From Candidatus Krumholzibacteriota bacterium (GTDB lineage: Bacteria > Krumholzibacteriota > Krumholzibacteriia > JAJRXK01): DNA of 64,000 bases. A program made the translations under genes and the position numbers. Location: positions 62,001 through 126,000 of the forward strand of contig JAJDAC010000048.1 in the NCBI GenBank assembly GCA_029262065.1, read 5' to 3'. Shown here piece by piece: positions 57,337 through 63,350 of the stretch. Under the pieces are notes generated by a model. The model was not told the origin of the DNA, did not search any database, and saw only the letters and a list, made by a program, of their open reading frames with translations. The first letter of the stretch is position 1, and every line of letters begins with the position of its first letter.

Positions 57337-58044
57337 CTAGGCGCGCGGGCCGTTGCCGCCGTGCATGCGCGCGGTAATGGGAATTTCACGCAGTGCGTTT
57401 TCTTCGATCACGACGCGTCGTGTGAGTTCCGTTTCGACCAGGTCGGTGGGGTAGTACTCGCGGGCAAGCTCGACGAACAAGAACGCGTGGCCACTCTCGG
57501 ATTGGGCCAGTCCCGCGTACAGGGCGGCCAGGTCTTCCGCCTGCGGAACGTCGGGTGCGAATTCACGCAGTCCCCAGGCCAACGAAACAAAACGCTCGCA
57601 GCTTCGCGCTTCCACCAACGCCGCTACCATGAGGTCGTCGAGCAAGGCGTGCTCCGACCCCATGCGTTCGCGATTCACGGCCTTCAGGTAGGGTGAGGGC
57701 ATCGGTCGTGTGAGGGTTCCACCGCGCGTCTGGAGTACGTCACGGACCTGCCGGTAGTGTCGCATTTCCTCGCGGCACAACCCCGCCAGGTGTTGCACCA
57801 GTTTCTCGCGATTGGGATTTCTACCGATCAGGGCCAGCGCGTTGCTGGCTGCTTTCAGTTCGCACTGACAGTGGTCGTCCAGCAGCTCATTCAGATTGGC
57901 CAGCGCGTGACGCACCCAGCGTTCACTGGTGGCCCCGCGCAGGGGCACCATGTTCAGGCGCTCGAGTTCGGTGGCCTGGCCGGGTAGCGCCGCGGCCCGC
58001 ATCCGCTGTTCGATGTCGGGATCGATTCGTGGCGTTGATTCCAT
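57337..58044 (-). CDS. miaE: MiaE-like tRNA hydroxylase (ferritin-like diiron protein)
   Basis: 235 aa. Ferritin-like four-helix bundle with carboxylate/His iron ligands spread as in MiaE: ELLDDHCQCELKAASNALAL, LCREEMRHYRQVRDVL, VAALVEARSCERFVSLAWGL and LAQSESGHAFLFVELAREYY. MiaE hydroxylates ms2i6A37 to ms2io6A in tRNAs reading codons starting with U. ATG start 58044. Alone between a secreted protein gene and the sugar dehydrogenase gene. Partner genes miaA and miaB are not in the window. Confidence 0.85.
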   Translation of the reverse strand: MESTPRIDPDIEQRMRAAALPGQATELERLNMVPLRGATSERWVRHALANLNELLDDHCQCELKAASNALALIGRNPNREKLVQHLAGLCREEMRHYRQVRDVLQTRGGTLTRPMPSPYLKAVNRERMGSEHALLDDLMVAALVEARSCERFVSLAWGLREFAPDVPQAEDLAALYAGLAQSESGHAFLFVELAREYYPTDLVETELTRRVVIEENALREIPITARMHGGNGPRA

Positions 58045-59100: not shown

Positions 59101-59147
59101 CCTATACTCTTGCCGCCAACTCGCTGCAAGCTCGGGGAGCACAAGGT

Positions 59148-59783
59148 ATGAAGCAGGATCGAGACCGCGTTCGGCGCGTGGTGGAAAGCGTCGTCGACGA
59201 ATTGTTGCCGCGGCAGGGTGCTTTGCCGCCGGCCCCGAAGCCACCGACCGGCGGTTGGAAGGTGGCGCCGTTCTACGTGGGCGACCCCAAGACCAGACAA
59301 CCCCTCATTGGAGCCCGCGGGCTGAAGCTGCAGCCGGGAGCCGAGCGTCGCGTGGCCATTGGCAGCGACCACGGCGGGTTTGCCCTCAAGAAGATTCTCA
59401 TCGAAGAGTTGAGGGAGTTGGACTTCCAGGTGGAAGACTGCGGTACCTACAGCACCCAGAGTTGTGATTACCCCGACTTTGCCCAGCGCGTGGGCGAGCA
59501 ACTGCAGCGTGGCCAGTGCCGGCTGGGCATCATGATCGATGGTGCGGGCATTGGCAGCGCCATGGCGTTGAACAAGATGCGCGGCGTGCGCGCGGCGACC
59601 GTGCACAACGAGGCCACGGCGATCAACAGCCGCGAACACAACGATGCCAACGTACTGGTGTTGGGGAGCGGCCAACTCCATTCGGGCCACGCGCGGCGAT
59701 TGGCGCGCATCTGGTTGGCTACGCCGCACGCGGGGGGGCGCCACGCAAAACGCGTGGACAAGATCAACGCGCTCGACGGTTAG
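59148..59783 (+). CDS. RpiB/LacAB-family sugar-phosphate isomerase with N-terminal targeting-like helix
   Basis: 211 aa versus ~150 for RpiB. The core from ~67 matches RpiB: VAIGSDHGGFALKKILIEEL, CGTYSTQSCDYPDFAQ, REHNDANVLVLGSG and GGRHAKRVDKI. The catalytic Cys-Gly-Thr of E. coli RpiB is Asp131-Gly-Ala133 (MIDGAGIGSAMALNKMRG), as I recall for the microcompartment-associated branch. Residues 5-20 (RDRVRRVVESVVDELL) form an amphipathic helix with hydrophobics at i, i+3/4, i+7/8, followed by a Pro-rich linker (PRQGALPPAPKPPTGG), like encapsulation peptides. Probably a pentose or deoxypentose phosphate isomerase. Next to nucleoside salvage genes. ATG 59148. Confidence 0.87.
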   Translation: MKQDRDRVRRVVESVVDELLPRQGALPPAPKPPTGGWKVAPFYVGDPKTRQPLIGARGLKLQPGAERRVAIGSDHGGFALKKILIEELRELDFQVEDCGTYSTQSCDYPDFAQRVGEQLQRGQCRLGIMIDGAGIGSAMALNKMRGVRAATVHNEATAINSREHNDANVLVLGSGQLHSGHARRLARIWLATPHAGGRHAKRVDKINALDG

Positions 59784-60481
59784 CGGGGCGCGAAGGCGCT
59801 CTTCACCGCTCCCAGGCTGATGGCGTTCGTAGCCACGCCCGTACCAAACTCCAACTCGCCCGACATGGTATTGAACGTGTTGCCGTCGCCCTCGCAGGGC
59901 TCGCCATCGACTGTGCTGCATGCCCACCACGAGCAAGAGTCGACGATGAACCGGTACGCACCGGGCGACAGGGTTCCGGTGCCAGCGCCGCCGATTCCTC
60001 CCCACGTAAGTACATCCGGTTGCGTGGCGGCGGTGGATGCATCGGGTACGGGTATCAGCCGCGCCCACCAGTTGCCGGTGGCCGTGGCTGGACCGTACTG
60101 GCACTCGTAGCGAAATTCGGTGGAGGCCAGTATCCGGAACTCGATTTCGAAGTGCAAACCGGCACTGGCGCTCTCGCCGCGGGCGCCCGTGGCCGAGGTG
60201 GTCGACGAAACCGTGAATGCCGCGGGCGTGAGCATCGAGTCGAATTGAATGTGCGCGGCGGCTTCGCCGCAGGTGGCGTCGAGCTGCTCGTCTATGGCGA
60301 AGGCACCGACGGACTGGGAGTCATCTTGGACCACTTGGGAGTCATAGCTGCCGTCGCCACAGTAGCCACCCACCTGGGTGTGCCACTGTCGACTCACCGA
60401 GAGCAACTCGACGTCGGCCGCCCCGGCGGCCGAGCTTGCGAGTAGGGTCAGTAGGAGGGGGAGCAAGGAGATGCGTGTCAC
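59780..60481 (-). CDS. Hypothetical secreted protein
   Basis: 233 aa. Signal peptide LLPLLLTLLASSAAGA. The mature protein is beta-type, Ser/Thr/Ala-rich with several paired cysteines (GGYCGDGSYDSQ, LDATCGEAAA, CSWWACSTV, EPCEGDG) consistent with disulfides in an exported protein. GTG start 60481. Its stop overlaps rpiB's end by 4 bp in convergent orientation. No family recognised. Confidence 0.68.
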   Translation of the reverse strand: MTRISLLPLLLTLLASSAAGAADVELLSVSRQWHTQVGGYCGDGSYDSQVVQDDSQSVGAFAIDEQLDATCGEAAAHIQFDSMLTPAAFTVSSTTSATGARGESASAGLHFEIEFRILASTEFRYECQYGPATATGNWWARLIPVPDASTAATQPDVLTWGGIGGAGTGTLSPGAYRFIVDSCSWWACSTVDGEPCEGDGNTFNTMSGELEFGTGVATNAISLGAVKSAFAPR

Positions 60482-60652
60482 GTGGTCTCGGATGCGGTGT
60501 CTTGGGTGAGAACGAACGGCAGCGCCCGTTGATGCAACTCAACCCCAATGATAGCACAGCGGGTCTGGTCGCGGTCGGGCCGGTACCCTAATATGACAGC
60601 GCATTCGACCCCGCATCCGTCATTCGTCTATCGCCAGTCAAGGAAACGCCGC

Positions 60653-61378
60653 ATGGCCAACAAACCCACTTCTTCTGCCCACGGAGCCCCTTTGCTGGGT
60701 CCCACCCCCACGGGCGAAAAGGTCCCGTTCTTCGTGGCCATCGCCGGCAACATCGGTGTGGGCAAGACCATGGTTACCGACCTGCTGGGAGAACGCCTGG
60801 GGTGGGATACCTACTACGAACCCGTGGTCGACAATCCCTACCTGGAAGATTTCTACCGCGACATGCGTCGGTTCAGCTTTCACCTGCAGGTGTTCTTCCT
60901 ATCCAAGCGTTTCGCTCTGCAGCGCACGTTGCTCGAGAGTGGCCGCAGCGCCGTGCAGGATCGGACCATCTACGAAGACACCGAGATCTTCGCGCGCATT
61001 CTTTACCGCCGGGGCCAGATGGAAGAACGCGACTACCAGAACTATCGTGAGCTGTTCGCCGAGATGGTCAGCTATCTGCGTCCGCCCGACCTGGTGCTGT
61101 ACATGCGTGCGCAGCCCAAGACGATTCTGGGACGAATTCGTCAGCGTGGTCGTGAGATGGAAAAAGATATCGACGTGGAGTATCTGGGCGAGCTCCACGA
61201 CGCGTACGAGAACTGGGCGCAGTACATTCCGCGCATGGCGCCGCTGCACATCATAGACACCGATGTCGTGGATCTGAAATCTGACCGCGCCGCACAGAGC
61301 GAGCTGGTGGCGAAGATCCAAGCCATGTCGAAGGCCAAGGATCAACAGATTCTCGCGCGGCGATCGGCCCAGGCATGA
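60653..61378 (+). CDS. Deoxynucleoside kinase (dNK/dGK family)
   Basis: 241 aa. The P-loop is FFVAIAGNIGVGKTMVTDLL (GxxxxGK[ST]); then YYEPVVDNPYLEDFYRDM, the DRS-like motif QDRTIYEDTEIFARIL, a lid with RIRQRGREMEKDIDVEYL and the LHIIDTD region. Phosphorylates deoxynucleosides (dA/dG/dC type) using ATP, for salvage. ATG 60653 has AAGGA 9 nt upstream; the N-terminal ~23 residues are a disordered extension. First of three coupled salvage genes: its stop overlaps the next ATG (ATGA). Confidence 0.92.
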   Translation: MANKPTSSAHGAPLLGPTPTGEKVPFFVAIAGNIGVGKTMVTDLLGERLGWDTYYEPVVDNPYLEDFYRDMRRFSFHLQVFFLSKRFALQRTLLESGRSAVQDRTIYEDTEIFARILYRRGQMEERDYQNYRELFAEMVSYLRPPDLVLYMRAQPKTILGRIRQRGREMEKDIDVEYLGELHDAYENWAQYIPRMAPLHIIDTDVVDLKSDRAAQSELVAKIQAMSKAKDQQILARRSAQA

Positions 61379-62472
61379 AACACGAGCTACCAATCGTCAG
61401 CGACTTCCTGAGGGGTCGCGACATTCCTACCCACTTGTTGGCTGACCTCCCGAAGGTTGACCTGAGTATCCATTTTGATGGCAGCCTCAGATTTTCGACG
61501 TTCGTCGAATTGTCGCGGCAGCAAGGTCTTGCTTTACCCGGAGGTTCCGAAGAAAAGGCACGGGAGATCCTGACCGGAGCCAGCGGCAGTCAGACCCTGT
61601 TGGAATACATTGCCCTATTCGACTATTCCCTGGCCGTGCTGCAGGACGCGGCGTCGCTGCGACGGGCCATCCACGAGCTGGTCGAAGACTGCGCGCGGGA
61701 GAACGTCTGGCATTTCGAACTGCGGTTCACGCCCACGTTGCACACGGAAGGCGAGCTGACCGTGACTTCGGTTACCGAGTTGGTATTGCACGAACTGCAC
61801 CAGGCCGCCAACGACGCCGGGATCAGCGCCGGGCTGATCATCTCGGGGCTGCGTCATCGGGGAATCGAAGAAGTCCGGGAGCTCGCCGAGCTGGCCGTAC
61901 GGTACAAGAGCAAAGGCGTTGTGGGTTTCGATCTGGCGGGGGCCGAGGCGAACTTCCCGGCCAAAGACCACACCGAGGCGTTCTACCTCATCCTGAACAA
62001 CAACATCAACTGCACGGTCCATGCCGGCGAGGCCTGGGGCCCCGAGAGTATTCAGCAGGCGCTGCACTATCTGGGCGCGCACCGGATTGGGCACGGAGCT
62101 CGGGTCGAAGAGGATTCCGATCTCACGCACTACATTGCCGACCATCGAATTCCCATCGAGGTGGGGCTCAGCAGCAGCGTGCGAACGCAAAGCGTGCCGA
62201 GCCTCGAGCGGCATCCATTGCGTCGATTCCTCCGACGGGGACTTCGATTGACCCTGTGCAGTCACAACCGTCTGTTCCTGGACAACTCCTTGACGCATGA
62301 GATGCGCCTGGCGGTCGACACGTTCGACCTGACGTTGCTCGACATCGAGAACCTGATCGTCATGGGGTTCAAGAGCGCGTTCTTGCACCAGACCGACCGC
62401 AAAGAGCTGCTACGGGGAGCCGTGCAGGAATTCGGTGAAGTTCGCCGTCGGCATGGACTGGAGGGTCCGTGA
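61375..62472 (+). CDS. Adenosine deaminase-like protein with altered metal ligands
   Basis: 365 aa. The TIM-barrel amidohydrolase of the ADA family is clear from LPKVDLSIHFDGSL, NCTVHAGEAWGPESI (His216, Glu219), LGAHRIGHGARVEED (His240) and IEVGLSSSVRTQSVPSLERH. But the first metal His of HxH is Ser31 (His33 retained), and the catalytic Asp-Asp of NTDDP reads Ser-His297-Asn298 (LTLCSHNRLFLDNSLTHEM). It may use a rearranged metal site, act on another nucleoside or aminopurine, or be inactive. Overlaps dNK (ATGA) and PNP (GTGA), so it is part of a salvage operon. Confidence 0.85.
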   Translation: MKHELPIVSDFLRGRDIPTHLLADLPKVDLSIHFDGSLRFSTFVELSRQQGLALPGGSEEKAREILTGASGSQTLLEYIALFDYSLAVLQDAASLRRAIHELVEDCARENVWHFELRFTPTLHTEGELTVTSVTELVLHELHQAANDAGISAGLIISGLRHRGIEEVRELAELAVRYKSKGVVGFDLAGAEANFPAKDHTEAFYLILNNNINCTVHAGEAWGPESIQQALHYLGAHRIGHGARVEEDSDLTHYIADHRIPIEVGLSSSVRTQSVPSLERHPLRRFLRRGLRLTLCSHNRLFLDNSLTHEMRLAVDTFDLTLLDIENLIVMGFKSAFLHQTDRKELLRGAVQEFGEVRRRHGLEGP

Positions 62473-63350
62473 GTCATCTAAAGGCCGCGGACGGCTGGCG
62501 CTTGGACGACGCCTTCGCGCAGCGCGTGGAAGCGGCGGCTGAGTCGTTGCGAGCCGAAGGGTTTGGCGCGCCCGTGGGCATGGTGCTCGGAAGTGGACTG
62601 GGCAACGTGGTCGACCGCATGGAGGTCCAGGCCGTGCGGCCGTTCGGTGAGATACCGGGATTCCATGCTCCCACGGTGGCCGCCCACAAGGGCCAGCTGG
62701 TGCAAGGGACTCACGACGGGCGCTCGGCCCTGATTCTGCAAGGCCGCCTGCACGCCTACGAGGGCCTGGACATGGCCGACGTGGTGTTTCCCATCGCCAC
62801 GTTGGTAGCGCTTGGTTGCCGTACCATTCTCATGACCAATGCGGCCGGTGGTCTGCATCCCGATTCCCGCGCGGGCGATGTCATGGTCATCTCCAGCCTG
62901 ATCGACTTCCACTGGGCGGACGCGACGCGCGGTCTGGTATTGCCCCCGGCCAATGTCGACACCGAGGTCGCCTTGCGGGCGGCCACCCACGCGGGGCCAT
63001 TCGATCGTGCGCTGGCCCACGGTCTGGTGAAGGTTGCGGCCTCTTGCAAGGTCTTCGCTCGCACCGGTACCTACGTCTCGTTGTGGGGTCCCAACTACGA
63101 GACGCCGCGAGAGATCGGCTTTCTGCGCCGTATCGGCGGCGACGCCGTGGGCATGAGCACGGGTCCCGAGTCGGCCTTCGCGCGGCGAATGGGCGTGCGC
63201 CTGGCGGGGATATCGCTGATTACCAATGTCGCGGTGGAATCCGGTGGCGAAGTGGTTACGCACGACGAGGTGATCGAAGTGGGGGCGGCCAGTCGGGAGT
63301 CGCTGGCCGACGTCATTCTGGCCGCGTTGCCCCTTCTGCACGGGTCGTGA
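62469..63350 (+). CDS. Purine nucleoside phosphorylase (PNP-I, trimeric type)
   Basis: 293 aa. Phosphate-binding GMVLGSGLGNVVDRM, VAAHKGQLVQG, RLHAYEGLDMADVVFPI, NAAGGLHPDSRAGDVMVI, TYVSLWGPNYETPREI, GMSTGPESAFARRMG and GISLITNVAVESGGEVVTHD are the trimeric PNP family motifs, with the purine-binding Asn in ITN. Cleaves (deoxy)guanosine/inosine with phosphate to base plus (deoxy)ribose-1-P. GTG start 62469 overlaps the upstream stop (GTGA). Its sugar phosphate product could feed a phosphopentomutase and the neighbouring RpiB-type isomerase. Confidence 0.93.
   Translation: MSHLKAADGWRLDDAFAQRVEAAAESLRAEGFGAPVGMVLGSGLGNVVDRMEVQAVRPFGEIPGFHAPTVAAHKGQLVQGTHDGRSALILQGRLHAYEGLDMADVVFPIATLVALGCRTILMTNAAGGLHPDSRAGDVMVISSLIDFHWADATRGLVLPPANVDTEVALRAATHAGPFDRALAHGLVKVAASCKVFARTGTYVSLWGPNYETPREIGFLRRIGGDAVGMSTGPESAFARRMGVRLAGISLITNVAVESGGEVVTHDEVIEVGAASRESLADVILAALPLLHGS

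Follow-up and report, generated by a model that had tools for sequence, protein, structure and literature searches.

Sugar-phosphate-utilisation (SPU) bacterial microcompartments share a DeoC-type enzyme (pfam01791) and an RpiB-type enzyme (pfam02502) (Axen 2014, PMC4207490; Sutter 2021, PMC8217296), found with a coenzyme A (CoA)-acylating aldehyde dehydrogenase and a shell, and DNA breakdown products are the proposed source of their substrate. In the HO type (Haliangium ochraceum, PMC8217296) there is a triplet of BMC-P shell genes and, in some genomes, a DeoC encoded elsewhere with an N-terminus resembling an encapsulation peptide. RpiB itself isomerises its substrate through a Cys that abstracts the C2 proton and a Thr two residues further on that shuttles a proton between O2 and O1, whilst His102 protonates the ring oxygen and so opens the furanose ring; the base in the Mycobacterium tuberculosis enzyme is Glu75, not Cys, and the changes C69S and C69A abolish the activity of other RpiBs (PMC4783025). 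Here we describe an rpiB-like gene in a 64-kb stretch of DNA, hereafter the window, belonging to contig C48 of a Candidatus Krumholzibacteriota genome (5.77 Mb, 59 contigs). Its product, in which Asp replaces the catalytic Cys (Asp-type), is very probably cargo of a dispersed, nucleoside-fed, SPU-like catabolic microcompartment (metabolosome), the genes of which lie at three unlinked loci.

An earlier note on this DNA had taken the protein for microcompartment cargo. It observed that no shell gene lies within the window and that sugar-phosphate compartments contain RpiB-like enzymes, the latter being borne out by the two surveys cited above. Searches of the whole genome with the profiles PF00936 and PF03319 likewise found no shell gene inside the window, and placed the shell locus on contig C16 (6254-9562), where genes for BMC-H, BMC-P, an aldehyde dehydrogenase, a double-domain BMC-T and two further BMC-P proteins are found. 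The shell complement of the genome is three PF00936 domains (one BMC-H and one double-domain BMC-T) and three PF03319 BMC-P genes, and the locus contains only these and the aldehyde dehydrogenase. This enzyme belongs to the CoA-acylating PduP/EutE group (613 bits with NF011927, cut-off 403), with microcompartment-type enzymes as its nearest relatives and 5jfl as its best solved match; its N-terminus, MALSEEAIARIVADARGRAHAAEAPASPRP, consists of a helix and a Pro/Ala linker. The sole DeoC of the genome is encoded by the middle gene of a cdd-deoC-deoA operon on contig C39, with a GTG start overlapping the cdd stop, and it too begins with a helix, TADRQQLIDTITDRVVERL, followed by a linker. Shell proteins, a deoxyribose-phosphate aldolase and an aldehyde dehydrogenase with a similar helix were what the earlier note had proposed to look for, and all three are present; the absence of shell genes and of a similar helix on related enzymes, which it had named as telling against cargo, is contradicted on both counts, and its interpretation is supported at the level of sequence. 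With a shell and two similarly tagged partner enzymes in the genome, the organelle therefore probably serves to digest the sugar moiety of DNA building blocks. Immediately upstream of the shell locus is a methyltetrahydrofolate:corrinoid methyltransferase-like gene (L004:5082-5852; PRK07535, 9e-37, below cut-off).

The Pfam family LacAB_rpiB (PF02502) matches residues 69-206 of the window protein (E = 6e-49, 166 bits, cut-off 24.7), which leaves an N-terminal extension of about 66 residues. In an AlphaFold2 model based on an alignment of 15 sequences, residues 5-19 form a helix with a predicted local distance difference test score (pLDDT) of ~82, residues 31-57 are disordered (pLDDT ~42) and the RpiB domain mostly exceeds 90, consistent with the extension of ~65 residues, made up of an amphipathic helix and a Pro-rich linker, that had been described from the sequence. 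Encapsulation peptides are recognised as terminal amphipathic helices of 15-20 residues joined to a flexible linker, and this is the arrangement found. The best Foldseek matches are solved RpiBs (3he8, E 1.2e-15, template modelling score 0.93 by target length). The protein scores 158 bits with the NF004051 profile, for which the cut-off is 135; with the TIGR01120 equivalog 'ribose 5-phosphate isomerase B' it scores 130.5 bits, below the cut-off of 138.65, and it is therefore treated as a member of the RpiB family and not named as a proven ribose-5-phosphate isomerase. A second RpiB, of the Cys type and without an extension, is encoded on contig C31 and is a separate housekeeping copy.

The extension was compared with 115 control N-termini of the same genome, drawn from the window and five other stretches. 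Two simple measures were dropped: the helical hydrophobic moment is equalled or exceeded by 7% of the controls, and a heptad pattern matched signal peptides too. Since neither separated the tag from the controls, a position profile was derived from 35 tags found in other phyla, the analysed genome contributing none. Scored separately with this profile, the window RpiB N-terminus reaches 9.3 bits, above all 115 controls; the ranking of the latter is headed by the shell-locus aldehyde dehydrogenase (8.7 bits), with 5.7 bits for the best unrelated protein, and just one of 682 60-residue chunks of control proteins attains 9.3 bits. The resemblance of this N-terminus to a tag is more than chance. 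The DeoC of the analysed genome scores a weak 4.9 bits, its homologue in G001, a genome of another genus in the same family, 11.3. The rpiB genes of G001 and of G002, which represents a further genus, each encode an N-terminal helix (NREALRRLVEEIVRELEG and SRETVRRMVQEVASDLLG respectively) followed by mutually unrelated linkers; that of G001 (L014:1950-2430) is long, rich in Gly, Arg and Glu, and broken by a run of N. We reject a wrong start or a signal peptide as the origin of the extension, given the ribosome-binding site, the charge of the helix and its conservation across three genera.

The active site is altered as the earlier note had read it: where C. thermocellum RpiB has Cys-Gly-Thr, residues 131-133 of the window protein are Asp-Gly-Ala. 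A catalytic Cys, a Glu equivalent to Glu75 of M. tuberculosis, and a Ser or Thr two residues on are all absent, their places being taken by Asp131, Ser137 and Ala133. Compared with the RpiBs of C. thermocellum (3he8) and E. coli (2vvr), the protein shares the fold, the ring-opening His and most of the substrate-binding residues, including the greater part of the phosphate pocket, but differs in these three positions and in bearing an N-terminal tag. The substitutions are near-uniform among 71 aligned Asp-type sequences, in which Asp stands for Cys, Ser occupies the Glu75 position and the ring-opening His is kept without exception (71/71 each), and Ala replaces Ser/Thr in 69. The hydroxyl residue two positions on is retained in all the Cys-type and Gly-type RpiBs examined.

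RpiBs and shell genes were scored in 98 genomes, in 86 of which the motif was read from sequence. Asp-type RpiB and shell genes occur together in 41 of these, Asp-type alone in one, shell genes alone in one and neither in 43, counts that are inflated by kinship, although two of the hits (G091, G097) lie outside the class. Hence 41 of 42 Asp-type genomes have shells, and the Asp type is missing from 43 of 44 genomes without them; the exceptions are G076 (Asp-type, no shell), with a listed contamination of 7%, and G070 (shell, no Asp-type), which is 76% complete. A further 80 loci came from distant relatives, mostly of other phyla (Chloroflexi, Acidobacteria and Gemmatimonadota among them). The retrieved flanks contain shell genes at 49 or more of these loci and DeoC at 65, and at least 35 of the RpiBs carry the tag xDxEIxxIVxRVVxxTLG ahead of the RpiB domain. 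On a tree made without the motif columns, the Asp-type label needs two changes as against 22 in shuffles, although, with no more than 137 columns to build on, many of its forks are weak. Asp-Gly-Ala thus marks the microcompartment branch of the RpiB family, with which the earlier note had associated it. Many Asp-type RpiBs (L080, L081, L089, L104, L109, L123 and others) have an additional segment before the domain, ITEADVxxVPxGxxLxVPPGALVTPLARDxAxERxI, which follows the tag where one is present and with which L109 begins; in the two cases tried (L080, L109) it matches no Pfam family.

Judged by RpiB sequence, the closest relatives belong to Candidatus Krumholzibacteriia, and the dispersal of the system is itself conserved in two further genera of the window's family. 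G001 and G002 also have, as separate loci, a shell locus with dehydrogenase, an rpiB-dNK-ada-pnp series in which rpiB directly precedes dNK, and deoC-deoA, preceded by cdd in G001; this three-locus layout is hence common to three genera of the family, the window genome included. G003, a fourth genome from this family, has RpiB fused to DeoC, as do many relatives in the class; the fusion in G003 lies within the shell locus. The helix tag of the fused proteins is in the interdomain linker, just ahead of DeoC, matching the N-terminal position of the tag in the window genome's DeoC. The fusions (L019-L042, e.g. L042:589-2025) also have a conserved stretch after this helix, PCVGxCPDTAxxFxxLGAxRL, which the N-terminus of the window genome's DeoC resembles (CGC...GACRL). 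In family f2 there is a single cdd-rpiB-deoC-deoA cluster, apart from the shell genes. RpiB adjoins DeoC there, the latter being tagged at least in G008, and may be carried in on it.

From the shell genes, the three tagged enzymes, the conserved three-locus layout and the tracking of shells by the Asp motif, we infer encapsulation, a flow of substrate and a reaction for the Asp-type RpiB. Residues 5-20 would act as an encapsulation peptide, binding the inner face of the shell by analogy with known examples and carrying in the RpiB domain on its flexible linker. Adenosine deaminase and purine nucleoside phosphorylase from the rpiB-side operon, together with cytidine deaminase and thymidine phosphorylase from the deoC operon, would release deoxyribose-1-phosphate from nucleosides, and the Asp-type RpiB would act on a pentose phosphate in the same lumen.

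Several observations weigh against this proposal. The window rpiB is not adjacent to shell genes, and in two family f2 genomes (G008 and G004; L016, L017) shells occur with an Asp-type RpiB lacking a clear tag; the RpiB tag is therefore not universal. PduL (PF06130) was found in none of six genomes searched, and a search for an iron alcohol dehydrogenase also found none, so either the cofactor-recycling core is incomplete or other enzymes are used; two Pta genes are present in the genome, unlinked to the shell locus. Furthermore, 2-deoxyribose-5-phosphate has no hydroxyl at C2, and as an isomerase reaction is therefore impossible on that substrate, isomerisation is not the step that the Asp-type RpiB performs on it.

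The alternatives mostly concern this chemistry. A serious contender, though one we judge to fall short of probable, is that the protein does interconvert an aldose and a ketose, using Asp131 as its base. The substrate would be ribose-5-phosphate derived from ribonucleosides, or a similar sugar phosphate, and encapsulation would bring ribo- and deoxyribonucleosides together in one place. Almost all Asp types lack the hydroxyl that RpiBs otherwise have two residues further along, and a separate housekeeping RpiB exists, both of which speak against such a role; however, the RpiB fold is complete and the family score high, purine nucleoside phosphorylase can release ribose-1-phosphate too, ribose-5-phosphate isomerisation is assumed for SPU compartments (PMC8217296), and a carboxylate base is possible in RpiB because the M. 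tuberculosis enzyme uses Glu75 in place of Cys (PMC4783025).

It is rather unlikely, on our assessment, that the same cargo has ceased to be an isomerase and instead opens the furanose ring of 2-deoxyribose-5-phosphate, passing the free aldehyde to DeoC within the compartment. Retention of the ring-opening His in every aligned Asp type alongside loss of the residues that act on the C2 proton and O2 speaks for such an 'openase', as does the fusion of RpiB to DeoC in many relatives. The substrate is 99.8% furanose (PMC5975929), although the same paper argues that its ring opening is not expected to limit DeoC, and Asp could serve as the base in ordinary isomerisation. There is precedent for an aldolase with such a helper in the N-acetylneuraminate anomerase YhcH, which supplies NanA with open sugar (PMC8141875); it belongs to another family (DUF386) and acts on a different sugar, and its likeness to RpiB is hypothetical.

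It is improbable that the encapsulated protein is catalytically dead, serving as a binding partner or scaffold of DeoC in the lumen. RpiB is indeed fused to or adjoins DeoC, and has lost the catalytic Cys and Thr, and replacement of the Cys inactivates other RpiBs (C69S and C69A; PMC4783025), but decay would give varied residues, whereas Asp, Ala and Ser are fixed and the ring-opening His is kept across phyla. That the extension is unrelated to any compartment, reflecting a wrong start or another targeting or interaction role with the shell genes coincidental, is very improbable: rpiB does lie far from the shell genes and the helical moment alone is unremarkable, but the ATG has a good ribosome-binding site, the helix is kept in three genera where the linker is not, RpiBs inside the shell loci of other phyla bear the same tag, and the association with shells across genomes is close.

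To judge from its sequence, the window protein would function as cargo does in compartments of the SPU type. The genome has BMC-H and BMC-P genes and, at other loci, compartment-type DeoC and RpiB, both helix-tagged, with the CoA-acylating dehydrogenase and presumptive DNA-derived substrate also as in SPU systems. Neither signature enzyme lies inside the shell locus (C16:6254-9562), each being in a nucleoside-catabolism operon instead, and strict SPU membership is therefore not claimed; PduL, common but not universal in SPU compartments, was not found here, and there is a single BMC-T with two strong BMC domains. The BMC-P triplet and the tagged DeoC outside the shell locus recall the HO type, from which the genome differs in that rpiB is also elsewhere and tagged, the text of PMC8217296 naming only the pfam01791 enzyme. 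In the literature searched, which was incomplete and excluded supplements, we found neither the Asp-Gly-Ala marker nor any tagged RpiB encoded in a nucleoside operon.

Features of the rpiB-like gene and the downstream salvage operon, in window coordinates
Feature	Position	Strand	Details and basis
Probable ribosome-binding site GGGGAG	59134..59139	+	8 nt before the rpiB-like ATG; sequence
rpiB-like gene, Asp-type (microcompartment branch)	59148..59783	+	211 aa, ATG start; open reading frame list, Pfam PF02502, tree
Encapsulation-peptide-like amphipathic helix RDRVRRVVESVVDELL, residues 5-20	59160..59207	+	AlphaFold2, tag profile, conservation of the helix in G001 and G002
Linker rich in Pro and Gly, residues 21-66, disordered in its middle	59208..59345	+	AlphaFold2 pLDDT; no conservation in relatives
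RpiB domain, residues 67-211	59346..59780	+	Pfam match at residues 69-206; Foldseek
Asp131-Gly-Ala133 (GAT GGT GCG), standing where RpiBs have the catalytic Cys and, two residues later, Ser/Thr	59538..59546	+	alignment
His164, equivalent of ring-opening His99 (E. coli)/His102, retained	59637..59639	+	alignment; PMC4783025
Deoxynucleoside kinase (dNK)	60548..61378	+	Pfam dNK 4.6e-52; immediately follows rpiB in two further genera of this family
Adenosine deaminase	61375..62472	+	Pfam A_deaminase 7.6e-80; synteny
Purine nucleoside phosphorylase	62469..63350	+	Pfam PNP_UDP_1 1.3e-39; synteny

The salvage operon that the earlier note had reported nearby is present (60548-63350), encoding an adenosine deaminase as well as the kinase and phosphorylase; it starts 0.76 kb after rpiB, not 0.9 kb. 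Between the two, on the minus strand (59780-60481), is a 233 aa open reading frame that matches no Pfam family and begins in the manner of a signal peptide; it is missing from this position in G001 and G002. Also on the minus strand, at 57337-58044, is a MiaE-like tRNA hydroxylase gene (Pfam MiaE, 4e-38), a homologue of which adjoins rpiB in G002 too.

Microcompartment surveys such as PMC8217296 read the genes near shell genes, whereas the cargo genes described here are far off, in two ordinary nucleoside-salvage operons. The compartment is therefore tied to nucleosides by gene order, not by guess, and the Asp-Gly-Ala motif offers a sequence marker for cargo unlinked to shell genes. This sharpens the question of what deoxyribose compartments need an RpiB for, given a substrate without the C2 hydroxyl on which isomerisation depends. 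One answer, which we put forward tentatively and consider doubtful, is that compartments of the deoxyribose type carry an RpiB turned from an isomerase into a 2-deoxyribose-5-phosphate ring opener feeding its partner aldolase within the shell; if this were true, Asp-Gly-Ala would reveal a nucleoside-eating organelle at a glance, including where the gene is remote from those for the shell.
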